Shown here piece after piece: positions 13,395 to 58,849 of a stretch of DNA of 64,000 nt. The translations under genes and the position numbers were made by a program. The notes under the pieces are model-generated. The model had not been told where the DNA came from, made no database searches, and saw nothing but the letters and a program-made list of their open reading frames with translations. The first letter of the stretch is position 1, and every line of letters begins with the position of its first letter. This DNA comes from Polaribacter sp. NJDZ03 (GTDB lineage Bacteria; Bacteroidota; Bacteroidia; Flavobacteriales; Flavobacteriaceae), in assembly GCF_019263805.1 (NCBI RefSeq), contig NZ_CP079195.1:2715001-2779000 (forward strand). The letters run 5' to 3'.

Positions 13395-14369
13395 ATGAAA
13401 TTAAAGATTGATAAATTTGTTCTCTCTATTGTTGGAACTATTTTAATCGCTTATTTTTTTCCACAATGGGGAGCACCAGAAAGTAAAATTCCTATTGATA
13501 CAATTAGTGCAGTTGGAATTTCATTGATCTTCTTTTTCTACGGATTAAAATTAAACCCGACACAGTTAAAAGCAGGACTTAAAAACTGGAGGTTACACCT
13601 TTTAGTACAAAGCGCTACATTTTTAATGTTTCCGTTATTGGTTTTATTGTTTAGACCATTAATCATGAATGAAGAACAAGAAACCATTTGGTTGGCTTTC
13701 TTTTTCTTGGCAGCATTACCCTCTACAGTTTCATCATCGGTTGTTATGGTATCTATGGCAAAAGGAAATATACCTGCAGCTATTTTTAATGCAAGTATTT
13801 CTGGAATTATAGGAATTGCCATTACACCTCTTTGGATGGGTTTGTTTGTAAATGATGCCCAAACAGATTTTGATTTTACAGGCATCTACCTAAAACTGAT
13901 TGGTCAAATTATTTTACCTGTAGTTTTAGGCCTTTTGTTACAACGTTTTTTAGGAGAGTTTGTTCACAAACACAGTAGTAAATTAACGTTGTTTGATAAG
14001 TCTATTATCTTATTGATAATTTATAAAAGTTTTGCAGAATCTTTTAATGGTCATATTTTTAGTGCTGTTTCACTTTTAGATTTAGGTGCTATTTTTGTTG
14101 GAGTAATATTCTTATTTATTATGGCTTTTTTTATAACAGGTTTTATTTCTAAAAAGTTAAAAATGAATACCGAAGACCAAATTACAGCACAGTTTTGTGG
14201 TACTAAAAAATCATTAGTACACGGTACCGTTTTTTCTAAAATATTGTTTGGTAACATGGCATCGGTTGGTATTATTCTTTTGCCTTTAATGTTGTTTCAT
14301 GGCACACAGATTTTAATAATTACCATTGTGGCTTCTAAATTGGCAAAACGAAAGGAAGTTCATTTATAA
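13395..14369 (+). CDS. Bile acid:sodium symporter family protein (SBF-like/YfeH type)
   Basis: 324 residues with about nine to ten hydrophobic segments spread along the whole length, beginning at residue 10. The pattern FFFYGLKL near residue 45, the paired internal halves and LPSTVSSSVVMVSMAKGN resemble the PF13593 SBF-like subgroup. Flavobacterial proteins of this kind are sodium-coupled organic-anion transporters of unknown substrate. Inner membrane. A TAACTTTG box at 13288-13295 could be the promoter. Ends against a shared convergent terminator. Confidence 0.87.
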   Translation: MKLKIDKFVLSIVGTILIAYFFPQWGAPESKIPIDTISAVGISLIFFFYGLKLNPTQLKAGLKNWRLHLLVQSATFLMFPLLVLLFRPLIMNEEQETIWLAFFFLAALPSTVSSSVVMVSMAKGNIPAAIFNASISGIIGIAITPLWMGLFVNDAQTDFDFTGIYLKLIGQIILPVVLGLLLQRFLGEFVHKHSSKLTLFDKSIILLIIYKSFAESFNGHIFSAVSLLDLGAIFVGVIFLFIMAFFITGFISKKLKMNTEDQITAQFCGTKKSLVHGTVFSKILFGNMASVGIILLPLMLFHGTQILIITIVASKLAKRKEVHL

Positions 14370-14384
14370 GAAACTTTAAATAAT

Positions 14385-14411
14385 CATAAAAAAAGAGACT
14401 CTTTTTTTATG
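14385..14411. terminator. Bidirectional terminator between convergent genes
   Basis: CATAAAAAAAG (14385-14395) pairs with CTTTTTTTATG (14401-14411), loop AGACT. It serves the symporter gene (plus) and the peroxidase gene (minus). Confidence 0.65.
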
Positions 14412-14428
14412 AGGTAGTTCTACTTTTT

Positions 14429-15457
14429 CTAATCGTCAATATTTACAAAACCAGTATCACTTAAGGTGTTTAGAAATATAATAAGGTTGTTTTTTTCATC
14501 CTCTGTAAGTGGAATTCTATTTTTATTCTCTTTAAGAATGGGATCTAGATTATCGGCATCTAAAACGCCATTGTCTAAATAATTTAACACTTCTTTTAAA
14601 GTAGTAAACTGACCGAAACTACCATAAGGAGCAGTATAGGCAATGTTTCTTAATGAAGGAACACGAAAACTCATTAAATCATTAGAACTGAGTGTAACTC
14701 TAGTGCGTCCTGTTTCTTCGCTATCTGGGTTTATTGGGAACCCTATATTTCTAAAACTTTGGTCTGTAAACAATTCTGTACTGTGACAACTAGAGCATTT
14801 ATCTTTAAAAGTTTGATAACCTTGTGCTTCATTTTCTGTAAAAACTTCGCCTTCATTTCTTTTTACTTTATCGTATTTACTGTTAGCAGAAATTAAGGTG
14901 TATTCATATTGGGCAATACTGTTTAGAATCCTATCTCCGGTTATATTTTTATCACCAAAGGTTTTAGTGAATAATTCAGTATACGATGCATCATTTTGTA
15001 GTTTTCCAATCACTTCTAAAATAGAAGAGTTCATTTCTTCTGGTGTAATTATAGGAACGAGTGGCTGATCTTCTAATTGAGATGTACTTCCGTCCCAATT
15101 ATATTGTTGCATAAATGCCATGTTTTGCACAGGTGGTGCATTTCTTAGTCCAATTCGTCCTTCAATACCGATACCTTTTGCATTATGATCTGCAAAAGCA
15201 TTTGCTTGAATATGACAACTAGAGCATGAAATAGTGTTGTCTGCACTTAATTTCTTGTCAAAAAATAATTTTTCACCTAATTCAACGCCGTATTTTGTGG
15301 GTTTATTGGTATAAAATGAATTATTTAATTCTGGGAAACCTTCAGGAATATTGATTTCTATTTCTGGGTTATCCAAAATAAAAGGTTCGTAAACATCTTC
15401 TTTTGTACAAGATGAAATGAGCAGTAAGATAAAAATATTCAGTATTATTTTTTTCAT
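14429..15457 (-). CDS. MbnH-like di-heme cytochrome c peroxidase lipoprotein
   Basis: 342 residues from the ATG at 15457, chosen because it starts directly at the lipoprotein signal MKKIILNIFILLLISSC. The nine extra upstream codons are not hydrophobic. Two CxxCH heme sites are present (CSSCHIQ and CSSCHST), as in MauG/MbnH/CCP enzymes, together with GLRNAPPVQNMAF and WDGSTSQLEDQ. In MbnH this enzyme oxidises a tryptophan of its partner MbnP to kynurenine to build a copper site; that partner-like gene is directly upstream here. After TAPY the usual MHDG is replaced by GSFG, so heme coordination or reactivity may differ. A MITE separates it from the mbnP-like gene. Confidence 0.8.
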   Translation of the reverse strand: MKKIILNIFILLLISSCTKEDVYEPFILDNPEIEINIPEGFPELNNSFYTNKPTKYGVELGEKLFFDKKLSADNTISCSSCHIQANAFADHNAKGIGIEGRIGLRNAPPVQNMAFMQQYNWDGSTSQLEDQPLVPIITPEEMNSSILEVIGKLQNDASYTELFTKTFGDKNITGDRILNSIAQYEYTLISANSKYDKVKRNEGEVFTENEAQGYQTFKDKCSSCHSTELFTDQSFRNIGFPINPDSEETGRTRVTLSSNDLMSFRVPSLRNIAYTAPYGSFGQFTTLKEVLNYLDNGVLDADNLDPILKENKNRIPLTEDEKNNLIIFLNTLSDTGFVNIDD

Positions 15458-15542
15458 TTTAAATACATTTTCATCTTTCCGCAATAGCGGGAAGAAGGCG
15501 TAAATGAAGCCGTTAACAAAATCTCAATGTTTTTTTAATAAA

Positions 15543-15670
15543 GAGAGGTTGTCTAAAAAGGTATTATTGTCAATCTGAATTTATTTCAGATTCTCAAATA
15601 ACGTCAGTAAGTAGAAGTGTTGAAACTAATTCTACATGACAAAATTTACTGCTTTTTAGACAACCAGCTC
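15543..15670. repeat. MITE-like element, copy 2, inside the copper locus
   Basis: Terminal repeats GAGAGGTTGTCTAAAAAG (15543-15560) and CTTTTTAGACAACC (15652-15665) enclose the same interior as copy 1, including AATCTGAATTTATTTCAGATT-like pairing. It fills most of the 219-bp gap between the mbnP-like and mbnH-like genes. Confidence 0.77.
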
Positions 15671-15676
15671 TAAAGT

Positions 15677-16564
15677 TTAGTTTTCTACACTTGTAATAGA
15701 AAACATTCCTTTGGTATTCGTTTCTCCATTTCCACCAATATTATCTACAAACTGTACCATTACGTCTGGGCTCGAATGATAACTTGGCGCAGTTCCTGAA
15801 GTAAAACCTTCGTTTGCAGCATCTAAAGTAATAGATTTTGTTCCGCTTAATAAGTTTTTAAAATCTGCTTTAATTTTAATAGTAGGAGCATTTTCGCCAA
15901 CCATTGCATTTGTAGTAAGCTCTAATGTAATATCTCTGTAAGCATTACGAGCATGTGTTTCTGCGCTAGACCATGTGCTTTCATCGGTTTTAGTTCCTCC
16001 TAAAACACTACCCGTATGGATAGATAATGGAGTATTATTTGTTCCGTAAAAACCTTCAATTTTTGTAAAACGGTACCCTGTTGCCCAGTACCAGTGTAAT
16101 GATGTGTCGTTTGCGCCAGCTGCAGCATAAAAAGTAGGGAAGCTTTCTTCACTTAAAGTGTTTAACGCTGCCTTTACACCTAGTCCAAATTTTATTTGTG
16201 TGTAATCGGCTGTAGGAATATTACTTAAAACATACTTTAATGTTGCTTCTTTAGATTGGTCAATAATAGTAGCTCCATTGTCTAAGTTTTGTGTATTGTA
16301 AGGAAATTCATTTCCTTCTGCGTTTACAAGACGTATATTACTTATTATATATTTCAATTCAGAAAAATGGTGAGTTTGTCCTTCTGCAGAAGTGTTTGCT
16401 GTTGCTTCTGTAGATGTTTCATTTCCTAAAACAATAGTAGTTTCTGCAAATGTGTTGTTAAATTCTAACGTTACATTATTAGCAACAGGAATACTGTCTT
16501 CACTACAAGAAGTGATTGATAATGAGATAAGTGATGCTAAAAGGTATTTTTTTAAATTTTTCAT
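15677..16564 (-). CDS. MbnP-like copper-binding lipoprotein
   Basis: 295 residues, lipobox ITSC with Cys20. The signature SLHWYWATGYRF (His157, Trp158, Trp160) followed by SIHTGS (His183), and an earlier HH at 65-66, matches the MbnP family. In characterised MbnP a tryptophan is converted to kynurenine by the MbnH peroxidase and helps bind copper. The four-Cys arrangement of some relatives is absent. It lies between the TonB receptor gene (35 bp upstream) and the mbnH-like gene. Which Trp would be modified cannot be told by eye. Confidence 0.8.
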   Translation of the reverse strand: MKNLKKYLLASLISLSITSCSEDSIPVANNVTLEFNNTFAETTIVLGNETSTEATANTSAEGQTHHFSELKYIISNIRLVNAEGNEFPYNTQNLDNGATIIDQSKEATLKYVLSNIPTADYTQIKFGLGVKAALNTLSEESFPTFYAAAGANDTSLHWYWATGYRFTKIEGFYGTNNTPLSIHTGSVLGGTKTDESTWSSAETHARNAYRDITLELTTNAMVGENAPTIKIKADFKNLLSGTKSITLDAANEGFTSGTAPSYHSSPDVMVQFVDNIGGNGETNTKGMFSITSVEN

Positions 16565-16599
16565 TTGTATTAATTTTAATTGATGTTATTATTCTTTGT

Positions 16600-18585
16600 T
16601 TAAAAATTGATCTTTAAAGACGTAAAAATGTTACGTCCCATTCTGGGGATGTTTCCCCAATCTGCGTAGGTGCTGTAATATTCATTAAATAGGTTTTCTG
16701 CACCTACCTGAAAAACTGTTTTGTAATTATTAATGTAAAAAGTATAATCTGCAGAAATATTAAAGTTTTTGTAAGATGGCGTTTCGTCTTCTCCGTATTC
16801 TGGACTGTAATTATTTTGTTTGAAATCACCATTTAGTGCTGTTCCAAAACCGAAATTTTTATGAGAAAAATGTAGCGAAGTTTGATAACTCAACGGACGA
16901 ATAAATGGTAAATTCTTTTTATTATCATCTAAACCTCTTGCATAGGTTAACGTTCCTTTCCAATGTAAGTTTTCCAAAATATTGTACTTGGTATTTAGTG
17001 AGAAATTGAACAATGTTGCATAATCTAAAGAGGTATATCCTTTAACACCCACAGATTGATAATTCATTGGACTCCCCAAACTTAAAATTCTTCCTATAAT
17101 ATAATTTTGAATATAGAAATAGTTCACTTTGGCATTGATACTTCCTTTTTCGTTTTCGAAGCCAGCACTCGCATTTACTTCATAAGAAATTTCATTTTTC
17201 AAATCTGGGTTTCCGATGTAATCATACCGATCGAAACTGTTATAAATATAATATCCATATCCTTCGGAAACAGAAGGCGCTCTATGACCGTAACCACCAC
17301 CAACAGAAAAATTAAAATCACCTACATTTAAATGATAACTTGTATTTAAACTTGGTAAAAATCTTGTTTTTTCTTGTGGTGTTCCCGGGTGAAAAATCCA
17401 ATTGAATTCTACATATTTAGAATAATTGTAATTGACACCTAGAGAGCCACCAAAACTTAGTTGACTTGTATCAGAAATATCCCATAAATTACCTATTGAA
17501 AGTCCTGCATAGGTTGTTGTAACCCAAGGCCAACTATATGCAAACATAGTTCGTTCACTTCGGTCTTGCGGATACATGCGCATTTCTGCAATAGATAAAT
17601 TATTGTAGGCATTCAATTGCACTTCAGATGATAAATTACCTTTCTGAAGATTTACTTTAGAAACCAAACCATACGTTGTACTCCAACCAGGCATGTCCAT
17701 GTGAACCAAGTTTTCCGGACGTGTGGTATCATCCATATAATGTTCTATAGCATTAAAATACACTTTGGTGTCCCACACTTTTACAATTCCTTTTTCAAAA
17801 AATTGTTTGTAGGTAACCGATGTAATTAACGCTCTAGACAAAGACAAATCCATTGGTAATGCTGGGAAACCAACATTTTTAGCTCTATCAAAAATGGCAT
17901 CTACTCTTACAGAGGATAAATCACTTGTTTTGTAAGCGACTCCTAAAGAAGCGTTCAATTTTTCAAACTGAGAATGTTGTACTTCGTCATTATTTCCGTC
18001 TGAGTAATTTGATGCTTTTCTGTTAGAGATACTTCCATCTACTACTAATTTTTCACTAGAATAAGAGGAGTTTGCAAGGTTAAAAAACTGTTTGTTATTA
18101 AACTCGAATCCTGTTTGGTAAGCACCTTTGTAATTCTCCCCAATTGTAAATGCGGTACTTTTCCTTTTCAAATCGATGCTACCAGCAACTGTTGCTCCAT
18201 GCAAACTGCCCTCTTGTCCTGATTTTATATCAATATCAGATAAATTATTACTTTCTACATAAGACGTTACCGGGTCCATTTTATCGGTACAAGCGCCAAA
18301 AACATGCATACCATCTATGGTCACTAAAGAACGTTCTGTACTCATGTTATTCAACAACGGCTCCCAAGCATAAGGACCACGTTTAATAAAACTGATGTTG
18401 TCTGACGAGGCTAAAAATTCATCCACAGAAACTGCCATTTTCATGTCTGTTTCTATTTTATTTTTTTTAGCCGCTATAATTATTACTTCTTCTAAGACGC
18501 CACCTAAACTATCTTTTTTCTTCTCAACAGTTTGTGCATTTGCGAGAGTTGCTAATAATAGGATTGCTATCGTTATTATTTTCAT
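16600..18585 (-). CDS. TonB-dependent copper receptor (OprC-like)
   Basis: 661 residues from the ATG at 18585, four bases after the preceding stop. This start gives a clean signal peptide (MKIITIAILLLATLANAQ); an ATG seven codons earlier would overlap the upstream gene. A plug domain (SLVTIDGMHVFGACTDKMDP) is followed by a barrel ending in aromatic LKINF. OprC of Pseudomonas binds copper through CxxxM and HxM. Here CTDKM gives Cys106/Met110 and EHYMDD gives His289/Met291 (numbered from the longer ATG; subtract seven for this start). Outer membrane. It sits with MbnP- and MbnH-like genes, so copper is the likely cargo. Confidence 0.85.
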   Translation of the reverse strand: MKIITIAILLLATLANAQTVEKKKDSLGGVLEEVIIIAAKKNKIETDMKMAVSVDEFLASSDNISFIKRGPYAWEPLLNNMSTERSLVTIDGMHVFGACTDKMDPVTSYVESNNLSDIDIKSGQEGSLHGATVAGSIDLKRKSTAFTIGENYKGAYQTGFEFNNKQFFNLANSSYSSEKLVVDGSISNRKASNYSDGNNDEVQHSQFEKLNASLGVAYKTSDLSSVRVDAIFDRAKNVGFPALPMDLSLSRALITSVTYKQFFEKGIVKVWDTKVYFNAIEHYMDDTTRPENLVHMDMPGWSTTYGLVSKVNLQKGNLSSEVQLNAYNNLSIAEMRMYPQDRSERTMFAYSWPWVTTTYAGLSIGNLWDISDTSQLSFGGSLGVNYNYSKYVEFNWIFHPGTPQEKTRFLPSLNTSYHLNVGDFNFSVGGGYGHRAPSVSEGYGYYIYNSFDRYDYIGNPDLKNEISYEVNASAGFENEKGSINAKVNYFYIQNYIIGRILSLGSPMNYQSVGVKGYTSLDYATLFNFSLNTKYNILENLHWKGTLTYARGLDDNKKNLPFIRPLSYQTSLHFSHKNFGFGTALNGDFKQNNYSPEYGEDETPSYKNFNISADYTFYINNYKTVFQVGAENLFNEYYSTYADWGNIPRMGRNIFTSLKINF

Positions 18586-18589
18586 ATTC

Positions 18590-19513
18590 TTAAAATAAGA
18601 TATCAATATGAAGTTCTCCTCTTTCTCCTTCTACTCCTGGAGTAAATTCGGTAGAAACTTCGTTTCCTTTTATTATGTGTTGATTTTCATCTTTTAAAAT
18701 GAAATTCAACGTCCAATTCCCTGTCATAGTGTAATTCACAACTCCATGATACAAACCATCACTTTCTTGGGATAAATCTTCATTATAAGGTGATGAATGA
18801 TTTCCCATAGAAGGTTCAGGCATTCTTGGATCTATTAATAATGTGTGATTTTCTACTGCTGAATACGAAAATTGCGTAACATCAGTAAATTCTCCTGAGG
18901 CATTAGTTGGCTTGTTGTATTTGTAAATACCAGCAACCAAATCGTTTTGTGCCACACGCGGACTTTGAGGTGCAACTAACGCAATAAAATACTGCTCGTT
19001 ATCATTGCCTGTAAAAGCCGTCATGTTGAGGTTCATGTTTGTTTGCTCTTCTACAGTGATAACTTTATCGATAGATTGAGTTTTAGTATTATCAGTAAAA
19101 CCGATATACAACTGCCAATCTACTGTAGAACTACTCTCATTTGTAAACACAACATATCCTACGTAATACCCTTCAGTTGCATTATATGTTAGATTATATT
19201 CATGCGGACAAGAAGATTTATTACCATTCGCATCGGTCATAATTGGTAAAAAGGTAATTTTAGAATTATCGATGTTCTCACCTGTTTCTAATTTGGTGAT
19301 GTTTAGATGAACCTCATTATAACCTTTATACAAAGTACCATTTAAAGCTTCTATGCTAATGCTATAATTTTCATTATTTGCGATAGTTACTTCTTCGAAC
19401 TCAATATATTCTGTAGTTTCTATATTTAATTCGGCTTCGTAATTCGTTTTATCTAGCGTACAAGAAGTTATTACAATAGAAATTGCAATTACAATTATCT
19501 GTAAATGTTTCAT
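18590..19513 (-). CDS. Lipoprotein with two FixH/YtkA-like modules
   Basis: 307 residues, lipobox ITSC (Cys18). Two similar halves can be read: residues near 80-150 (FLPIM...SSCPHEYN...GYYVGYVVF...VDWQLYIGF) and near 225-285 (IDPRMPEPSMGNHSSPY...GLYHGVVNYTMTGNWTLNF). Both follow the YtkA/FixH pattern of a Met/His-bearing loop, then G-x-Y, then G-x-W. The Met/His loop of the second half could bind copper, but this is inferred. It is the second gene of the copper locus and ends four bases before the receptor start. I do not know a named family for the full-length protein. Confidence 0.72.
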   Translation of the reverse strand: MKHLQIIVIAISIVITSCTLDKTNYEAELNIETTEYIEFEEVTIANNENYSISIEALNGTLYKGYNEVHLNITKLETGENIDNSKITFLPIMTDANGNKSSCPHEYNLTYNATEGYYVGYVVFTNESSSTVDWQLYIGFTDNTKTQSIDKVITVEEQTNMNLNMTAFTGNDNEQYFIALVAPQSPRVAQNDLVAGIYKYNKPTNASGEFTDVTQFSYSAVENHTLLIDPRMPEPSMGNHSSPYNEDLSQESDGLYHGVVNYTMTGNWTLNFILKDENQHIIKGNEVSTEFTPGVEGERGELHIDILF

Positions 19514-19834
19514 TATTTTAGGACTGTTTTATTAAAAAACTGTTGAAAAACTAGTAGCAACAAATAGGAGAACAATTACTCGTTTTTAAGAAAGTATATT
19601 GCACATTATCAGCTAAACACAATTGCTATAATTGCATTTTTACTACTAAAAAGAAATCGTTAAGAAACACGCTTACCAAACACTGCGTAAAAAGCTTTTG
19701 TTTTAAAAAAAAACTTAACGGTGTGTTGTTCTTTACTATTAATTATTTCTAATTGATAGCACAGAACTAGATGCCTAATTAAAATTAATTAAGCACCAAT
19801 TATTTGGTGTATTGCGTTTCTTAGTATGAAGAAA
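19514..19834. other. Intergenic gap inside the copper locus
   Basis: 320 bp without an open frame of interest. It is T/A-rich, and I see neither a convincing -7 box for the minus strand nor a terminator. A short pairing (GCACCAATTATTTGGTG near 19792-19808) is the only structure noticed. Confidence 0.4.
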
Positions 19835-20200
19835 TTAAGCGAGTGGTGGGTGAAAAACAACATCCGTATAATGGAATTTATAGGTGTTATTATATGAAGT
19901 ACTTATTTTTAAATTTTCGTCTTTAGACAAAAGGAAAGATTCTTTGTGAGTTGTTTCTTGAAAATAAACGATAGAAATTTCTACTTTAAAAGATTGGTTT
20001 TTTTCATTACCACTTTCAGAATCTCCTGCCTTCACAATTTGTTTTGCTAAATGACATTTACCGTTACACTGTAACTCTGGAGCATCTTTGTTTTCACAAA
20101 GTTCGTTTTTAATATAATCGTAAAAAGCAGCATACTCCAATAATGGAAGCAAGGGTTTGGTAAGCAAGAATACCGATAAAAATATGGCAGCTATTTTCAC
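19835..20200 (-). CDS. Small membrane-anchored protein with CxGKCHL motif, first gene of the copper locus
   Basis: 121 residues. One N-terminal hydrophobic segment (about 3-20) works as signal or anchor. Then come Cys35 and the motif LQCNGKCHLAKQ (Cys45, Cys49, His50), an acidic Gly/Asn spacer, and a C-terminal YKFHYTDVVFHPPLA with further His. The Cys/His pattern suggests metal binding in the periplasm. I recognise the layout from flavobacterial copper-receptor neighbourhoods but know of no function. It lies 321 bp upstream of the double-module lipoprotein, same strand. Confidence 0.7.
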   Translation of the reverse strand: MKIAAIFLSVFLLTKPLLPLLEYAAFYDYIKNELCENKDAPELQCNGKCHLAKQIVKAGDSESGNEKNQSFKVEISIVYFQETTHKESFLLSKDENLKISTSYNNTYKFHYTDVVFHPPLA

Positions 20201-20268
20201 GATGCAAATATCTTGTTTTTTTATAAAATTTCCTAAGATTACTAATCTTATAAAAAATAGATAGTATT

Positions 20269-21273
20269 TTATCGCTGTAACCTTCCAGTAGTATTTCCTT
20301 CTAGAATACTCATTACTTCTTTTTCGTTTGCATAATTAATATCACCTAAATAGGTGTGTTTAATGGCACAAGCAGCGCTACCAAATTGCATTGCTTTATA
20401 GTCATCAAATTTTTGTAAACCATGTATTATTCCGGCTGCAAAAGCATCACCAGTCCCAATTCTGTCTACAATATGCGTAATGTCTAAATCTTGAGTTTCT
20501 TTAAATTCTTTACCGTTCCACATTCTCGCTCTAATTTTATGCCAAGAAGAATTGATAGAAGTTCTAATTTTATCAAATACTTTTTCTATGGTAGGATATG
20601 TTTCCATTAACTGTTTACTAGCCTCAATAAAATCGTCGTTAGAGTAAGAGTAATTGGTTTCTAGAAGTTCATTTATTTCATTTACACCACCAATAAAAAC
20701 GGTGGAATAATTTACTAATTCTGATAAAATTTCTTTTGGAGTACCTCCCCATTTCCATAAACCACTTCTGTATGTAGGATCTGCAGAAATTCCCATACCT
20801 TTTTTTTGGGCAAGAATTAATCCTTCTTTTAAAGTTTCATAACCACCTTTACAAAGCGCAGGTGTGATACCGGTCCAATGAAACCATTTTCCTTGCTTTA
20901 AAGATTTTTCCCAATTTACCATTTCTGGTTGAATTTCAGAAAAAGAAGAGTGAGATCTATTATAAGAAATAGAGCTCGGTCTCATAACAGCACCAACTTC
21001 TAAAAAATAAACACCTAAAGGTCTGTTAGAACGAACAATTGCTGAAGTGCTTACGTCAAATTTTCTTAGAAAAGAAATTGCAGTATCACCTATAAAATCA
21101 TCAGAAACACATGAAATATGTTTTACATCTTGTCCAAAATTGGCTACAGAAATACCAACATTTAATTCGGTACCACCAAAATAAAACTCTACTTGGTTAG
21201 ATTGAATAAATTTTTTGTTTCCTGAAGGTGAAATTCGCATTAAAACCTCTCCAAATGTAATTATCTGATTCAT
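20269..21273 (-). CDS. PfkB-family sugar kinase (2-dehydro-3-deoxygluconokinase-like)
   Basis: 334 residues. The N-terminal FGGTELNVGISVANFGQDV and the C-terminal DRIGTGDAFAAGIIHGL (anion hole and catalytic Asp) are the two PfkB signatures. Overall length and the AVMRPSSISYNRSHSSF segment resemble KDG kinases, which phosphorylate 2-keto-3-deoxygluconate in uronate and alginate catabolism. No aldolase gene is adjacent, so the exact sugar is uncertain. Cytoplasmic. Confidence 0.85.
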   Translation of the reverse strand: MNQIITFGEVLMRISPSGNKKFIQSNQVEFYFGGTELNVGISVANFGQDVKHISCVSDDFIGDTAISFLRKFDVSTSAIVRSNRPLGVYFLEVGAVMRPSSISYNRSHSSFSEIQPEMVNWEKSLKQGKWFHWTGITPALCKGGYETLKEGLILAQKKGMGISADPTYRSGLWKWGGTPKEILSELVNYSTVFIGGVNEINELLETNYSYSNDDFIEASKQLMETYPTIEKVFDKIRTSINSSWHKIRARMWNGKEFKETQDLDITHIVDRIGTGDAFAAGIIHGLQKFDDYKAMQFGSAACAIKHTYLGDINYANEKEVMSILEGNTTGRLQR

Positions 21274-52405: not shown

Positions 52406-55400
52406 ATGAATTATAGTCAAATAACCCTCTTGTTTATGCAGGGTACTTTAGTTGCTTTAGTAATGCTTTTTTTATTTCATTATAGAAAACAGTTGGGTAT
52501 TGGAGTTATGTTTGCATGCTTGGGATTATTTCAGTTTGTACAGGTGTTTTTATACAATAGTGTTTCTATTTCAATTACAGATAATTTTTTTGTTTCTCCA
52601 GGACATGTTGTTTTTTTCTTAGCATCTCTATTTGTTTTACTTATGGTTTACATAAAGGAAGACACAAATGAAACTAAAAAAATTATTTATGCTTTGTTTG
52701 TTGTAAACATAGTAATGTCTATTCTTGTAGAAACATTAAACTTTACCAACACATCTATAAAAGGTGGTTTTAATTTAACAGAAGATCTTTTTAATATTAG
52801 TTTATGGGAATTATTTATTAGTACAGTAGTGTTGTTTTTAGATGCTTTTTTAATCATATTTTTATTTGAATATATATCTAAAAAAATACAATTCTTATTT
52901 CTCCAGATTTGTATTACTATGCTAATTGTTATTAGTTTTGATACATTGTTTTTTGTAATCTTAACGTCTTGGGATGTACATAATTTAACTTCAATTATAA
53001 TATCTGGACTTATATCAAAAGGAATTTTTACTATTTTTTATGGGACTTTTCTTTACCTTTATTTACGATTTTTCGATAAAAGTAAGTCGATATCAACTAT
53101 TTTTAAAATTAAAGATATCTTTCAGCCACTAACTTATAGACAAAAATTTGAATCTGCAGAAAAAGTAATTCAAGAAACTACAGAGATGTATCGTATTCTA
53201 ACAGATCACTCTAGTGATTTAATTTTTTTACAAGAACCAGATGCCACTTTTAAATATATTAGTCCCTCTATAAAAAAAATATTGGGTTATGAACAATCAG
53301 AATTTTTAGGGAAGCAAGTCTTTAGTATTGTTCATAAAGATGATATTACAATCATAAAGGAATTACTAGCAAAAAAATTAATTAGTAAAGGCGTTATTTC
53401 TGATGCTATTCCCGTTAGAATCTTACATAAAGATGGTCATTACATTTGGTTAGAATTTTTGTCATCTCCGGTTTATAAAGGAGATGAAATTAGTTACTTT
53501 GTTACTTCTGCCAGAGATATTACGCAGAGAATTTTAGCAAGGGAGAAAATTCAAGATTCTTTTGAGGAATTAGAAAAAAAGGAACACTCTTTAGAAGAGG
53601 CTAGTAAAGTTGCTAAAATAGGATATTGGGAATATAATATTAAAACAGATACTTTTATCTGGTCTGATTATATGTATACCATTTACGGAATAGATCCAGA
53701 AAAGGGAGTTCCATCTCAAAAAGATCTCATCTCTTTATATGATAAAGAATCTCAAGAAAAGATAGCCCAGGTTGTAAAGGATATTGCAGAAAAAGGAGTT
53801 TCTTGTGATGTAGAATTAAGATTTATCAACAAAAAAAATAAAGTTGTTTGGGAGCGTACTGTTGCTAAATCTATTTATAATCAACAAAATGAGGTTGTAG
53901 GTAGAATAGGTGTTATGCAAGATATTACGGCCTTAAAAAATGCACAGTTTGAAGAGGTGCTTTCAAAAGAAAAAATTAAATCTTCTCTAGAACTTTTAGA
54001 GAAAAAGGGTTTTACTTTAGATGAAGTGAGTAGCATGGCTAAGATTGGTTATTGGGAGTTTAGTAACGACCAGGTTCATGTTATTTGGTCTGATTATCAT
54101 TATGAGATTTTTGGATTAGATCCTAAAAAGGGAATTCCTCCACGAGAAAAAATTTTAGCTTTTTTTGATGATGAATCTCAAAGAAAAATAGAGCAAGTTA
54201 ATTTAGAATTGAACTTAAAAGGAACGCCTTATGATATTGATTTAAAATTGATTAATGAAAACAAAGAAGAGGTTTGGGTACGCAGTATAGTACAGCCTGT
54301 ATATGATAAGCAAAATAAAATTACAGGAAGAAGAGGTCTTTTACAAAATATTACAACCTCTAAAAAAGCTCAATTAGCTTTGGAGCTTTCTACAGAAAAT
54401 ATTCAAATCTCTTTAAAGTTATTAGAGAAAAAAGATTACTCTTTAAATGAGTCTAGTAAAATGGCTAAAATAGGGTATTGGGATTATATTATTGAAACAG
54501 ATACATATACATGGTCTGATTATATTTACCATATTTATGGATTAAGCCCAAATGATGGAATTCCGCCACATAAGGAAGCAGTGAAGGTTTGTGACAAAGA
54601 GTCTCTAGAAAAATTATTAGCCGCCACATTAGAACTGAATACAAAAGGTACACCTTATAATGTTATTCTAAAATTAATTAATAGAAATAATGAAGAGGTT
54701 TGGGTAAGAAATGTAGCTAAGCCTATTTATAACAAAGAAAATGAGATTATTGGAAGAAGAGGGGTTTTACAAAATATAACCGAATGGAAAAAAGCTCAAT
54801 TAGAATTAGAATTATCTAAAGAAAAGATTCAATCTTCATTAGATCTTTTAGAAAAAAGAGACCATTCTTTAACGGAATCTAGTAGGATTGCTAAAATTGG
54901 GCATTGGGAGTATGATATAGCAACGGATAGTTATGTTTGGTCTGATTATGTGTATGAAATTTATGGTTTCGATTTAAATGAAAGTATTCCTTCACGTAAA
55001 GAAATGGTGAGTTTTTATGATAAAGATTCTCAGTTTAAGTTAGCTAAAGCTACTGTAAATCTTACCCTAAAAGGAACTATTTACGATATTGAATTGAAAT
55101 TAATTAATAAAAAAAATAAAGAGTTTTGGGTAAGGCAAGTGGTACAGCTTATTTACAACGAACAAGATGAAATTATTGGTAGAAGAGGTGTAGTGCATAA
55201 TATTACAGCTTCTAAAAAAGCTCAATTAGAATTAGAACTCTCTAAAAATAAGATTCAGAAGTCTTTAGAGTTGTTGGAGAATAGTGAATTCTCTAAGAAT
55301 GAAGCTAGTAAAATGGCTAAAATGGGGTATTTAGTGGATGATATTGCTACAGAAACTTATGTTTGGTCAGAATATATATATCATATTTTTGGATTTGACA

Positions 55401-58400
55401 TAAAAAAGCCTGTACCCTCACGTAAAGAAATTGCAGAACTTTTTAACGAAGAGTCTAAAGAAAAGATGGGGAAAGCTACCTTTAAATTAGATACCGAGGG
55501 CATTCCTTTTGATCTTGAGTTAAAAATGATAAACTTAAGAAAGGAAGTAGTTTGGATTAGAATTGTAGTTGAACCTGTTTACGATCAACAAAATAAAATT
55601 ATTAAAAGAAGAGGAGTATTACAAGATATTACCGCTTCTAAAAATACGCAACTAGAATTAGAGCTTTCTAAAGAAAAGATTCAGACCTCCTTAAAATTAT
55701 CAAGAAAAAGAAAGAATTCGATGGATGAGGCTAGTAAAGTAGCCAAAATAGGTTATTGGGAGCACGATATGTTAACAGGCATTGTTGTATGGTCTGAGTA
55801 TGTGCATCGTATTTTTGGATCAAATCCTAAAGATGGAATTCCACCAGAGGTGGTGTTTTTGAAAAACATGAAAAAAGAATCGCAAGAAAAGTTTGCAGAA
55901 GCAACAATAGCACTTACTTCTAAAGGTGTTTCTTATGATATAGAATTGCAATTTATTAACTTAAAAAAGGAAGTTGTTTGGGTTAGAAATGTAGCACAAC
56001 CTATTTACAATGAACAAAATGAAATTGTTGGTAAGAGGGGTATTTTACAGAATATTACAGCTTCTAAAAAAGCACAGGAAGAATTAGAGCTTTCTAACCA
56101 AAAGATTGAAACCACTTTAAAACTTTTAGAGAAAAAGGAATACTCCTTGCGTAAAGCTAGTGAAATAGCTAAAATAGGGTATCAAGAATATGATAATGCA
56201 ACAGGTATTTTTATATGGTCTGATTATGTTTATGATATTTTAAGGTTTGATATAAATGAAGGAATTCCATCACGTGAAGATATTGAACAAATTTTTGATG
56301 ATGAATCTATAGTTAAATATGAAAAAGCAATTAAAGATCTGGTTAAAAATGGTACTCCTTTTGATTGTGAATTGAGGCTTGTTACCAAAGATAAAGAAGA
56401 AGTTTGGGTTAGAAATGTTGGTCAGCCTGTTTATAACAAGCAAAATGAAATTATAGGAAGAAGAGGTATTCTACAAGATATTACAGTTGCTAAAAAAGCA
56501 CAATTTGAACTAGAGCATTCTAAAGAAGAAATTCAAACTTCTTTAGATTTATTAGAAATGAGTGAATATTCTAAAAATGAAGCTAGTAAAATGGCTAAAA
56601 TAGGGCATTTAGAGTATGATATGGCTTCAGATACTTCTGTGTGGTCTGAATATCTTTATGTTATTTTTGGATTAGACCCAAAACTTCCGCTGCCCCCATT
56701 AAAAGAAATAATGTCTTTTTTGGATGAAGACTCTCAAAAAAAGTTAAAAAAATTAACTTTAGATCTTGAGTTAAATGGAACTCCTTATGATGTTGAATTT
56801 AAATTAATTAATACTAGAAGTGAAAAGATTTGGGCAAGAATGATTGTTGAACCCTTGTATAATGAGCACGGAATTGTAGTTGGAAGAAGAGGTGTTCTAC
56901 AAGATATTACCGAGAGAAAACAAATAGAACAAGAGCATTTAAGGGTAGAAGATAATTATAGAAGACTCTTTGATAATGCTACTGTTTCTATTTGGAATGA
57001 AGATTTTACGAGTATTTTTAAAGAAATTGAAGTGCTTAGAACGCTTCAAATTCTTAATATAAAAGTGTATTTAGAACAGCACCCATGGTTGTTAAATGCT
57101 TTATTAGAAAAATTGATGGTTAATAGTGTAAATGCTGCTACTTTAAAATTGTTTAAAGTTAAAAACCATGAAGAATTTCTAGTGAATTTTTCCAAGACAC
57201 TTGGTACAGGGGCAGAGAAAATATTTGAAAACCTTATAGAAGCTATTTGGAATTATGAGAAGGTATTTTTATCAGAAGTAAATTTTAGAACACTAGAAGG
57301 AGATGAGTTTGCTGCCTTAGTTTCAATTCCTATACCTCAAACAGAGATAGAGCAGAAAACAGTACCTGTAAGTATTCAAAGTATTCAAAGTATCAAAGAT
57401 GCTAAATTGTCTGAGCTAGAATCCTTAGAAAAATTAAAAGAAGCACAAGAATTAGCTCAGGTTGGTAGTTGGACGCATAATGTTTTAACTGAAAAATCTG
57501 AGTGGTCTGAAGAAACGTTGCGTATTTGGGGTTTCGATTTAAATAAACCAACATTAGGACAAGTAGAAATTTTAAATAGAATTCATAAAGATGATCTTAA
57601 TTTTTTTAAACATACTGTAGATTTACTTTATGCTAAAGGAATTCCTTATGATATAGAATTTAGAATTTGTTTACCTAATAATGTAGAAAAAACCATAAGG
57701 GCTATATGTAAGCCTATATTTAACGAAAATAATGTTATAATCAGTTTAAAAGGAACTAATCAAGACATTACAGCTCAAAAAGAAGCAAGAAGAGAAATTG
57801 AAAAAGCAGAAGAGATGTACCGTATTATAACGGATAACTCTAATGATTTAATTTGCTTACATGAAATAAATAGTACTTTTAAATACATCAGTCCTTCTAT
57901 TTATAACTTATTAGGGTATAAACAATCAGAACTTTTAGGTAAAAATGTCTTTGGTATTGTTCATAAAAGTGATATTAAAGCTTTAAAAAAAGTAATGGTT
58001 CAAAGAAAATTTAGTAATATGTATACAGATACATTTAGTTGTAGAGTGTTACATAAAAAAGGACATTACATTTGGTTAGAGTTTTTATCGTCTCCAGTTT
58101 ATAAAGATAATGAGATTAGTTCTTATGTTTCATCTGCAAGAGATATTACGCAATGGGTGTTAGCTAAGCAAGAAATAGAAGAATACCAAACATCACTTCA
58201 GAAATTAACTACAGAGATGACGTTGATAGAGGAAAAACAGAAAAAAGAAATTGCAACCAATATACATGATCATTTAAGTCAGTCTTTAGTAATCTCAAAA
58301 ATGAAAATTAATGAGTTGAAAAAAAGACCACAATTAAAATTGATTGATGAAGATTTAAGATTTATTGAAACGCATATTTCTGAAGCTTTAGAGAATAGCC

Positions 58401-58849
58401 GTAAAATTACGTATGAGCTTTCACCTCCGGTATTATATCAATTAGGTATTGTTGAGGCGTTAAATTGGTTATTTGACAATGTAGAAACTACACATAAGAT
58501 TGCTTGCGTAGTTAATAGTAATGTAGATAATATTAATTTAGATGAAGTAAAATCTATTTTATTGTATAGAAGTATACAAGAAGTTTTAACCAATGCTATA
58601 AAATATGCAAGTGCATCTTTAATAACTTTAGACCTTGATAAGAATAACTTAGGACTTGATATTTTTATTACAGATAATGGAGTTGGTTTTAATACTTCTA
58701 TATTAAATAATCTTCATAATCATTCTGGATCTGGTTTTGGTTTGTTTACGGTTCAGGAACGAATTAGAAACATTCAAGGAAAATTTACAATAAAATCAAA
58801 AATAAATATGGGTACAACAGTTAAAATTTTTATACCTTTATCTAAATGA
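52406..58849 (+). CDS. Giant multi-PAS sensor histidine kinase
   Basis: 2147 residues. Residues 1 to about 225 hold about seven membrane segments (perhaps a VUPS/7TM-type sensor). A first PAS (TDHSSDLIFLQEPDATFKYIS) is at about 265-375. Eight PAS_3-like units follow, each opening with a variant of AKIGYWEY and W-S-[DE]-Y, at residues 403, 545, 687, 829, 971, 1113, 1255 and 1397: exactly 142 residues apart. Then a SIWNEDF-type PAS-like domain, a ninth diverged unit (AQVGSWTHN at 1684), a last PAS resembling the first, and a HisKA_3/HATPase kinase with His1954 in NIHDHLSQ, RSIQEVLTNAIKYA (N box), DNGVGFN and GSGFGLFTVQERI. The LuxR-type regulator gene overlaps its stop by four bases. Confidence 0.93.
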   Translation: MNYSQITLLFMQGTLVALVMLFLFHYRKQLGIGVMFACLGLFQFVQVFLYNSVSISITDNFFVSPGHVVFFLASLFVLLMVYIKEDTNETKKIIYALFVVNIVMSILVETLNFTNTSIKGGFNLTEDLFNISLWELFISTVVLFLDAFLIIFLFEYISKKIQFLFLQICITMLIVISFDTLFFVILTSWDVHNLTSIIISGLISKGIFTIFYGTFLYLYLRFFDKSKSISTIFKIKDIFQPLTYRQKFESAEKVIQETTEMYRILTDHSSDLIFLQEPDATFKYISPSIKKILGYEQSEFLGKQVFSIVHKDDITIIKELLAKKLISKGVISDAIPVRILHKDGHYIWLEFLSSPVYKGDEISYFVTSARDITQRILAREKIQDSFEELEKKEHSLEEASKVAKIGYWEYNIKTDTFIWSDYMYTIYGIDPEKGVPSQKDLISLYDKESQEKIAQVVKDIAEKGVSCDVELRFINKKNKVVWERTVAKSIYNQQNEVVGRIGVMQDITALKNAQFEEVLSKEKIKSSLELLEKKGFTLDEVSSMAKIGYWEFSNDQVHVIWSDYHYEIFGLDPKKGIPPREKILAFFDDESQRKIEQVNLELNLKGTPYDIDLKLINENKEEVWVRSIVQPVYDKQNKITGRRGLLQNITTSKKAQLALELSTENIQISLKLLEKKDYSLNESSKMAKIGYWDYIIETDTYTWSDYIYHIYGLSPNDGIPPHKEAVKVCDKESLEKLLAATLELNTKGTPYNVILKLINRNNEEVWVRNVAKPIYNKENEIIGRRGVLQNITEWKKAQLELELSKEKIQSSLDLLEKRDHSLTESSRIAKIGHWEYDIATDSYVWSDYVYEIYGFDLNESIPSRKEMVSFYDKDSQFKLAKATVNLTLKGTIYDIELKLINKKNKEFWVRQVVQLIYNEQDEIIGRRGVVHNITASKKAQLELELSKNKIQKSLELLENSEFSKNEASKMAKMGYLVDDIATETYVWSEYIYHIFGFDIKKPVPSRKEIAELFNEESKEKMGKATFKLDTEGIPFDLELKMINLRKEVVWIRIVVEPVYDQQNKIIKRRGVLQDITASKNTQLELELSKEKIQTSLKLSRKRKNSMDEASKVAKIGYWEHDMLTGIVVWSEYVHRIFGSNPKDGIPPEVVFLKNMKKESQEKFAEATIALTSKGVSYDIELQFINLKKEVVWVRNVAQPIYNEQNEIVGKRGILQNITASKKAQEELELSNQKIETTLKLLEKKEYSLRKASEIAKIGYQEYDNATGIFIWSDYVYDILRFDINEGIPSREDIEQIFDDESIVKYEKAIKDLVKNGTPFDCELRLVTKDKEEVWVRNVGQPVYNKQNEIIGRRGILQDITVAKKAQFELEHSKEEIQTSLDLLEMSEYSKNEASKMAKIGHLEYDMASDTSVWSEYLYVIFGLDPKLPLPPLKEIMSFLDEDSQKKLKKLTLDLELNGTPYDVEFKLINTRSEKIWARMIVEPLYNEHGIVVGRRGVLQDITERKQIEQEHLRVEDNYRRLFDNATVSIWNEDFTSIFKEIEVLRTLQILNIKVYLEQHPWLLNALLEKLMVNSVNAATLKLFKVKNHEEFLVNFSKTLGTGAEKIFENLIEAIWNYEKVFLSEVNFRTLEGDEFAALVSIPIPQTEIEQKTVPVSIQSIQSIKDAKLSELESLEKLKEAQELAQVGSWTHNVLTEKSEWSEETLRIWGFDLNKPTLGQVEILNRIHKDDLNFFKHTVDLLYAKGIPYDIEFRICLPNNVEKTIRAICKPIFNENNVIISLKGTNQDITAQKEARREIEKAEEMYRIITDNSNDLICLHEINSTFKYISPSIYNLLGYKQSELLGKNVFGIVHKSDIKALKKVMVQRKFSNMYTDTFSCRVLHKKGHYIWLEFLSSPVYKDNEISSYVSSARDITQWVLAKQEIEEYQTSLQKLTTEMTLIEEKQKKEIATNIHDHLSQSLVISKMKINELKKRPQLKLIDEDLRFIETHISEALENSRKITYELSPPVLYQLGIVEALNWLFDNVETTHKIACVVNSNVDNINLDEVKSILLYRSIQEVLTNAIKYASASLITLDLDKNNLGLDIFITDNGVGFNTSILNNLHNHSGSGFGLFTVQERIRNIQGKFTIKSKINMGTTVKIFIPLSK
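53612..57015 (+). repeat. Eight in-frame PAS repeats with 426-bp period
   Basis: The AKIG codon block starts at 53612, 54038, 54464, 54890, 55316, 55742, 56168 and 56594; every step is 426 bp. Units also share SKKAQLELELSKEKIQ-type linkers. Units 5 and 8 are alike (SKNEASKMAK), hinting at block duplication. Confidence 0.92.

Follow-up and report, generated by a model that had tools for sequence, protein, structure and literature searches.

A conserved Bacteroidota operon for probable copper acquisition, headed by a candidate regulatory leader

The window analysed here, a stretch of 64,000 nucleotides (nt) from Polaribacter sp. NJDZ03 (contig NZ_CP079195.1, positions 2,715,001 to 2,779,000), contains at 14429–20200 five co-linear open reading frames (ORFs) on the minus strand, which encode in order of reading a small cysteine-containing protein, a YtkA-like lipoprotein, an OprC-like TonB-dependent receptor (TBDT), an MbnP-family lipoprotein and an MbnH-like di-heme lipoprotein. 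The five same-strand genes named in the original prediction, which was made from the sequence alone, are present as such, with coordinates as given beforehand in the ORF listing. Together they probably constitute an outer-membrane copper-acquisition operon that is controlled by its own first gene. The original prediction had counted the small protein among the members of an envelope copper relay; its anatomy is instead that of a cis-acting regulatory leader, and it is referred to below as the leader.

A conserved operon and the case for copper

Named genomes were searched with an alignment of the YtkA-like lipoprotein alone, and neighbouring genes were labelled by profiles. The named loci referred to throughout are the best 80 of 149 confirmed places, with a few genomes contributing two loci, and counts out of 81 are these 80 plus the window. 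The survey of gene neighbourhoods, proposed at the outset as a check, found the families together: the TBDT directly follows the YtkA-like lipoprotein, and MbnP and MbnH are present, in 80/80 named loci, and the small Cys gene is directly upstream of the YtkA gene in 78/80, the remaining two being contig ends. The loci cover Polaribacter, Algibacter, Maribacter, Formosa, Winogradskyella, Flavobacterium, Chryseobacterium, Sphingobacterium and others. The linkage of the five genes is far beyond chance, and the near-perfect order in 80 loci therefore identifies a conserved Bacteroidota operon and no local accident.

The OprC-like, MbnP-like and MbnH-like assignments are in line with Pfam and NCBIfam matches (the latter below cut-off) and with the alignment of the OprC ligands. 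The receptor matches PF00593 (53.4 bits) and the copper receptor model TIGR01778 (81.7 bits, under the cut-off of 472.45), and its residues C106, M110, H289 and M291 align with C143, M147, H323 and M325 of OprC, the CxxxM-HxM copper ligands according to the available text on OprC (PMC8610252). All four are kept in 81/81 operon receptors, window included. In the wider small-ORF set, all four ligands are found in 37 of 90 receptor-like ORFs, many of the others being a different type of receptor. An HxM ligand at H302 was considered and dropped, the OprC alignment placing HxM at H289/M291.

Copper is very probably the substrate of the operon. An alternative, with another metal or heme as the substrate and a purely ancestral likeness to OprC and MbnP, would account for the receptor also matching the TonB-hemin and ZnuD models, but these score 57.3 and 18.1 bits and the copper model scores highest, the soft Cys/Met/His site is present in 81/81, and SCO1 is among the next genes of the leader family; this alternative is accordingly very unlikely. 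Three COX1-type matches in the genome point to a demand for copper. The predicted acquisition of copper via an envelope relay, which was part of the original prediction, is supported by the receptor ligands, the WxW motif of MbnP and the operon linkage.

A second type of receptor, with an IRPxGxFNHN motif (loci L043, L119, L121, L137, L140, L141 and others), also follows leaders of this family. The gene after the PepSY-type receptor is PepSY_TM in L043, L055 and L107, the three scanned, and in the PDB the PepSY_TM-type receptor of L043 finds siderophore receptors as its matches. The IRPxGxFNHN type is possibly the Bacteroidota counterpart of CrtA.

The leader ORF

No Pfam or NCBIfam model matched the leader family (window protein and alignment A1), and PF11162 (DUF2946) has no match in the window leader, the 32 A1 members or the window genome. 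At E ≤ 0.01 the leader finds 153 homologues; the 120 among the matches listed were used. A strict C[ND]G[KT]C motif is present in 117 of these 120; in 117/117 a Pro-Pro pair (PP) follows it at a distance of 66–70 residues, lying 2–4 residues from the stop in 115/117. The residue preceding PP in the listed homologues is H in 80, R in 26, K in 7, Q in 3 and V in 1. The leader-family profile detects the family in 83/196 genomes of the order and in 119/395 of the phylum.

For genomic context, 120 regions were taken from the phylum search, omitting G499 (a contig end), G186:C11 (internal stops), the eleven weakest listed matches and all weaker unlisted ones. Together with the window these regions contain 137 leader ORFs, all of which have a CxxxC motif and PP within the last 15 residues, an ending found in only 10 of 1136 control ORFs (at least 150 residues long). 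The spacing from CxxxC to PP is 61–73 residues, with one outlier of 121. The leader profile itself includes CxxxC and PP, and hence ORFs matched only up to model position 100 of 121 were checked separately; the PP end is kept in 28/28 of them. The hydropathy of the window leader is 2.13 over residues 3–21, and 126/137 ORFs have a 19-residue N-terminal window of at least 1.6, a measure of hydropathy only.

The leader is the first gene of its unit, and the genes that it heads vary. The next gene (n = 137) is a TBDT in 50 cases, MbnP in 39, YtkA in 19, another gene in 24, a second leader copy in 2, on the opposite strand in 2 and beyond the contig end in 1. Eleven of the 24 other genes were scanned against Pfam, giving SCO1 (2), outer-membrane MetA-like (4), DJ-1 (1), AraC (1) and no match (3). 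In 44/80 named loci a second leader copy lies between the receptor and MbnP, with the PP end in 42 of the 44. The nearest ORF upstream of the leader is on the same strand in 38/78 loci, on the opposite strand in 38/78 and missing in 2/78. A small gene that heads various copper modules and is repeated within one operon therefore looks like a cis-acting switch, not a relay protein, and its sequence makes it likely that the leader acts as a regulatory upstream ORF (uORF).

Were the small protein truly part of the relay, working in trans as a periplasmic copper chaperone or sensor, its Pro-Pro end would be structural; CxxxC is plausible as a copper site, and the gene is encoded alongside copper genes in most loci. 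Its body is, however, poorly conserved (mean 0.46 over residues 58–112 in the listed homologues plus window) compared with the four stop-proximal residues 116–119 (0.92), and the position of PP next to the stop, the near-fixed spacing to CxxxC, the different modules headed, the repetition within one operon and the long structured gap downstream also argue against a trans role, which we regard as unlikely.

The gap and the promoter region

Between the leader and the rest of the operon lies a gap with a median length of 295 nt (range 75–577, 78 named loci). In a sample consisting of every second gap of 150–360 nt, folding gave a mean z of −2.8, compared with −0.8 for YtkA-gene segments of equal length (n = 37, Mann-Whitney p = 6e-9); in the window, 357 nt including the gap have a fold z of −3.0. 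C exceeds G in the 3' half of the leader in 70/78 loci, in the gap in 60/78 and in the YtkA gene in 28/78. Rfam gave no match in window 14000–21000 at E ≤ 1.

Upstream of the leader, TTAGGAA occurs at −36/−37 of the expected start in 21/79 loci, whereas mono-nucleotide shuffles contain it anywhere in 150 nt in 1.3/79. In the window (20205–20236, minus strand) there is, besides TTAGGAA, a TTTG 5–8 nt upstream of the leader GTG, and the two are possibly the −33/−7 promoter of an almost leaderless mRNA. A leaderless TAnnTTTG promoter was rejected as a candidate: the full motif is found at 1 of 41 mapped starts, and TTG/TTTG 3–7 nt upstream at 20 of 41.

MbnP, MbnH and the YtkA-like lipoprotein

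The MbnP-family lipoprotein matches PF20243 with 115.7 bits (cut-off 27) and TIGR04052 with 60.1 bits, under the cut-off of 140, and is the sole MbnP match found in the genome; a sequence search of the PDB found no match for it. W158 and W160 are present in 45/45 sampled MbnP, and W158, W160 and H183 in 81/81 operon MbnP; the C-terminal HxH that 28–29 of the 45 sampled MbnP carry is absent from those of the operon. We take the WxW motif to be the kynurenine site, and Manesis 2021 is said to have identified the first Trp as the kynurenine precursor. The MbnH-like protein matches PF03150 with 176 bits and TIGR04039 with 197.5 bits, under the cut-off of 362.85, and keeps the first heme CxxCH in 80/81 (one row being gapped there) and the second in 81/81. 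Kynurenine formation by the candidate MbnP/MbnH pair is plausible. In many leader-MbnP-MbnH loci (L033–L054) a gene of about 313–339 residues follows MbnH, the L034 copy being without a Pfam match.

The locus had originally been described as lacking MbnA, MbnB and MbnC. For MbnB no match was found in the genome with a model that gave a signal, under its cut-off, in one of the control genomes; for MbnC the search gave no match in the genome but rang in no control genome either, and MbnA was not searched for.

The YtkA-like lipoprotein scores 24.3 bits against PF13115, slightly under the cut-off of 25.9. In alignment A2, which includes the window, the model is matched by 32 of 33 members at E ≤ 0.1, and M231, M236, H239 and M263 are kept in 81/81. 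It had been thought to contain two FixH/YtkA-like modules, a description that is not supported: only the C-terminal half matches, and a half-versus-half profile comparison gave a probability of 0.1%.

The N-termini bear on where these proteins reside. Surface lipoproteins predicted in Flavobacterium johnsoniae share SDDFE in the lipoprotein export signal (LES), and Capnocytophaga canimorsus favours C-X-K-(D/E)2, according to the portion of the LES work available (PMC5080379). An LES-like N-terminus (at least two acidic residues at +2 to +5) is present in 65/81 MbnP, 53/80 MbnH and 1/81 YtkA-like lipoproteins; in the window MbnH begins with CTKEDV and MbnP with CSEDS. These signals tip the balance slightly towards a cell-surface location of MbnP and MbnH. 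They suggest an arrangement with MbnP and MbnH outside, the receptor between and the YtkA-like lipoprotein inside, in which copper would be captured at the surface before import. Of the relay as originally predicted, copper acquisition stands; what is doubtful is its direction, from receptor to MbnP, since LES-like signals mark MbnP and MbnH but not YtkA. The characterised MbnP and MbnH are periplasmic, and a competing placement of the operon pair inside the periplasm, taking copper from the receptor, has a somewhat less than even chance, the LES-like signals of both families and the CTKEDV start of the window MbnH being the evidence against it.

Proposed mechanism of copper sensing

In the proposed sequence of events, surface MbnH would turn the first Trp of WxW in MbnP into kynurenine by oxidation, Cu(I) would be captured by surface MbnP and handed to the receptor, the receptor would import it using TonB energy, and the YtkA-like lipoprotein on the periplasmic side would receive it for heme-copper oxidases. 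The leader would be exported during synthesis, its CxxxC being just out of the membrane as the Pro-Pro codons reach the catalytic centre. Without copper the ribosome would stall on the leader and the operon would be read; with copper at CxxxC the stall would be released, the structured gap or Rho would halt expression and uptake would be turned off.

The geometry is drawn from CutF, whose motif is CxxxC and which, in the published text available, is exported while being synthesised and senses periplasmic copper, the tunnel holding about 30 residues of the nascent chain and the membrane 17 (PMC9973294). With these figures, the spacing of 61–73 residues would have brought CxxxC about 14–26 residues beyond the membrane by the time Pro-Pro is decoded. 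The direction of control is modelled on CruR, which is described, in the part of the account available, as stalling at RAPP without copper so that its operon stays on, copper at CXXC freeing the ribosome and Rho then ending transcription (PMC9426467). Periplasmic sensing with CruR-like logic is favoured by these analogies, and we give an even chance to the CruR-like direction itself, in which copper would shut uptake down.

The opposite, CutF-type logic would have copper strengthen the stall and turn the operon on, its role then being the storage or detoxification of excess copper. CxxxC, not CXXC, is the motif of CutF, CutF works from the periplasm according to the available text, and the spacing of 61–73 residues likewise puts the sensor there; the regulated genes are nevertheless an OprC-type importer, with its ligands in 81/81, and MbnP/MbnH, and for importers repression by copper would be expected. 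CruR, moreover, represses a TBDT, and the accessible text reports copper repression of the OprC orthologue NosA. CutF-type logic is consequently improbable here.

Several observations weigh against a copper-acquisition operon regulated by its leader with CruR-like logic. The leader is not obligatory for MbnP: among 196 genomes of the order, counted by hand, the two occur together in 65, MbnP without the leader in 61, the leader without MbnP in 18 and neither of them in 52. Transcription may read through into the leader in the window, where a PfkB gene precedes it by 68 nt on the same strand, and in 8/78 named loci a same-strand ORF ends 3–5 nt before the leader ORF. The leader ends in F[HRKQ]PP, unlike the RAPP/RGPP known to arrest ribosomes, and the proline motif of CutF alone gave no strong stall in the available description. 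Intrinsic terminators are not enriched in the gap (29/78 gaps, compared with 101/312 shuffles), the excess of C over G may partly be a by-product of the encoded amino acids, and ten Winogradskyella gaps share no covarying fold (6 pairs, covariation term 0.06; 10 of 12 loci were aligned, omitting L176 and L182, which have the shortest gaps). As to the proteins, the receptor, MbnP and MbnH all score below the NCBIfam cut-offs, and the predicted model of MbnP has a mean predicted local distance difference test score of 72.8, with low confidence (below 50) in the WxW region. The operon MbnH has PYGSFG in place of the PYMHDG of most other sampled MbnH. Its Tyr is at Y302 in 81/81, and column 303, a Tyr in the 6e1c MbnH, holds F or L; by MauG and MbnH we take the Tyr column to be that of the axial ligand.

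The widest form of the proposal is that a large unnamed leader family controls much of the outer-membrane copper uptake of Bacteroidota through a new arrest motif, F[HRK]PP, and a ruler of 61–73 residues by which the nascent chain would sense copper in the periplasm and not in the cytoplasm, used twice per operon for separate setting of the receptor and MbnP/MbnH, together with a surface kynurenine site made by a surface di-heme enzyme. This combination is put forward tentatively, as somewhat less probable than its opposite. If true, it would explain, in a form open to test, how copper is taken up in Bacteroidota and how the need for it is sensed, assign a function to many genes annotated 'hypothetical protein', allow copper-regulated operons to be predicted in a simple way and add a candidate surface-exposed kynurenine-copper protein.

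Locus layout and neighbouring genes

The features of the locus are collected in Table 1. The receptor and MbnH probably start at ATG 18585 and ATG 15457 respectively, which are preferred because signal and lipobox follow them directly in the sequence. The host genome is a single contig of 4.08 Mb, and the nearest named homologues are from Polaribacter. An SBF-type transporter (13395–14369) converges on the operon from its downstream side, and the PfkB-family sugar kinase upstream of the leader, on the same strand, occupies 20269–21273; it was ruled out as an operon member, since none of the 80 named loci has a PfkB relative.

The window also encodes a small cupredoxin-like protein (PF13473, PF00127; 23166–23522, minus strand), which lies some 3 kb upstream of the operon with an AhpD-like peroxidase-related gene next to it. 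An ORF of 2147 residues lies at 52406–58849 on the plus strand.

Table 1. Features of the operon and its leader in the window, with proposed roles
Feature	Position	Strand	Basis or remark
Leader ORF, 121 residues, GTG start	19835..20200	−	N-terminal hydrophobic segment, CxGKC, C-terminal FHPPLA-stop; no Pfam/NCBIfam family
Codons for CNGKC, residues 45–49; proposed copper-sensing site	20054..20068	−	CxxxC in 137/137 ORFs
Codons for FHPP, residues 116–119; proposed translation-arrest motif, 2 residues from stop	19844..19855	−	PP conservation
Leader-to-operon gap, 321 nt; proposed attenuation region	19514..19834	−	Structured, C>G
TTAGGAA, 36 nt 5' of leader GTG; possible promoter −33 element	20230..20236	−	Positional recurrence
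YtkA-like lipoprotein, 307 residues, C18 lipobox; proposed periplasm-facing copper carrier	18590..19513	−	Conserved M231, M236, H239, M263
OprC-like TonB-dependent receptor	16600..18585	−	ORF open from TTG 18606, likely ATG 18585; copper ligands aligned
MbnP-family lipoprotein, 295 residues; proposed surface copper binder	15677..16564	−	PF20243
Codons for W158-Y159-W160 (WxW); proposed Trp-to-kynurenine site	16085..16093	−	W158 and W160 invariant
MbnH-like di-heme lipoprotein, two CxxCH	14429..15457	−	ORF open from TTG 15484, likely ATG 15457

Comparison with known systems

The receptor has all four CxxxM-HxM ligands in common with OprC/NosA of Pseudomonas as described in the available text (PMC8610252), and differs from them in falling below the TIGR01778 cut-off, in its partner genes and in its Bacteroidota host. 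With the MbnP/MbnH pairs of methanotrophs and others, as far as the accessible account of them goes (PMC3621798), the operon pair shares adjacent genes, WxW and two CxxCH hemes; the operon differs from the methanotroph systems in that no MbnB was found in the genome and in its LES-like signals, and from the known proteins in that its MbnH is without PYMHDG and has a shifted Tyr and its MbnP is without the C-terminal HxH.

The system had been proposed as worth describing in flavobacteria. OprC-type TBDTs and MbnPH-like genes are each named as operon partners of CruR, mainly in Proteobacteria, a shared operon not being stated in the text available (PMC9426467); in the literature searched, supplements lying outside the search, no text was found that describes the leader family, its doubling or the operon of five genes, and no paper was found with the term HYC_CC_PP (query form 'hycccpp').

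A 2025 survey of RAPP/RGPP leaders, in the part available, did not find such uORFs before copper-factor genes in Bacteroidota, among other groups, and found them before TonB genes in all Gram-negative groups (PMC12992588). A leader family ending in HPP or RPP would escape a search for RAPP/RGPP. DUF2946-like ORFs with RAPP/RGPP ends do exist in some Bacteroidota: L152, L153, L154, L155, L157, L160 and L161 contain small ORFs of this kind with His-rich or CxxC middles, to which the leader profile gives no match at E ≤ 10 and which are candidates for separate arrest leaders.

In length and ending the leader agrees with the CutF-like census (PMC9973294, available text), being shorter than 150 residues (121) with PP in the last 15, and its CNGKC fits the CxxxC copper motif of R. 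capsulatus CutF. The spacing from CxxxC to PP is longer than the 45 residues of CutF-like proteins (PMC9973294), and the target is an uptake operon (OprC type, MbnPH), where that of CutF in Rhodobacter and others is a multicopper oxidase. In that census, as seen in the text available, 19% of the proteins, or 40% after normalisation, are from Bacteroidota and TonB neighbours are included, while the terms MbnP and Flavobacter are absent from the main text (PMC9973294). The window leader would probably pass the census filter, and the leader may therefore be an unlabelled census entry.

CruR (Bp2923, DUF2946), of bp2923-bfrG-bp2921 in Bordetella pertussis, resembles the leader, according to the available text (PMC9426467), in being a small first ORF with an export segment (putative in the leader), a Cys pair and a stop-adjacent Pro-Pro, followed by a long gap with an excess of C over G (the Rho terminator of cruR), and in its TBDT, PepSY_TM, SCO and MbnPH partners. 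The leader is distinguished by CxxxC, F[HRKQ]PP and a spacing of 61–73 residues (one of 121), compared with CXXC, RAPP and about 45 in CruR, and, again unlike CruR, it has no DUF2946 match, belongs to Bacteroidota and is present in two copies per operon in 44/80 loci.

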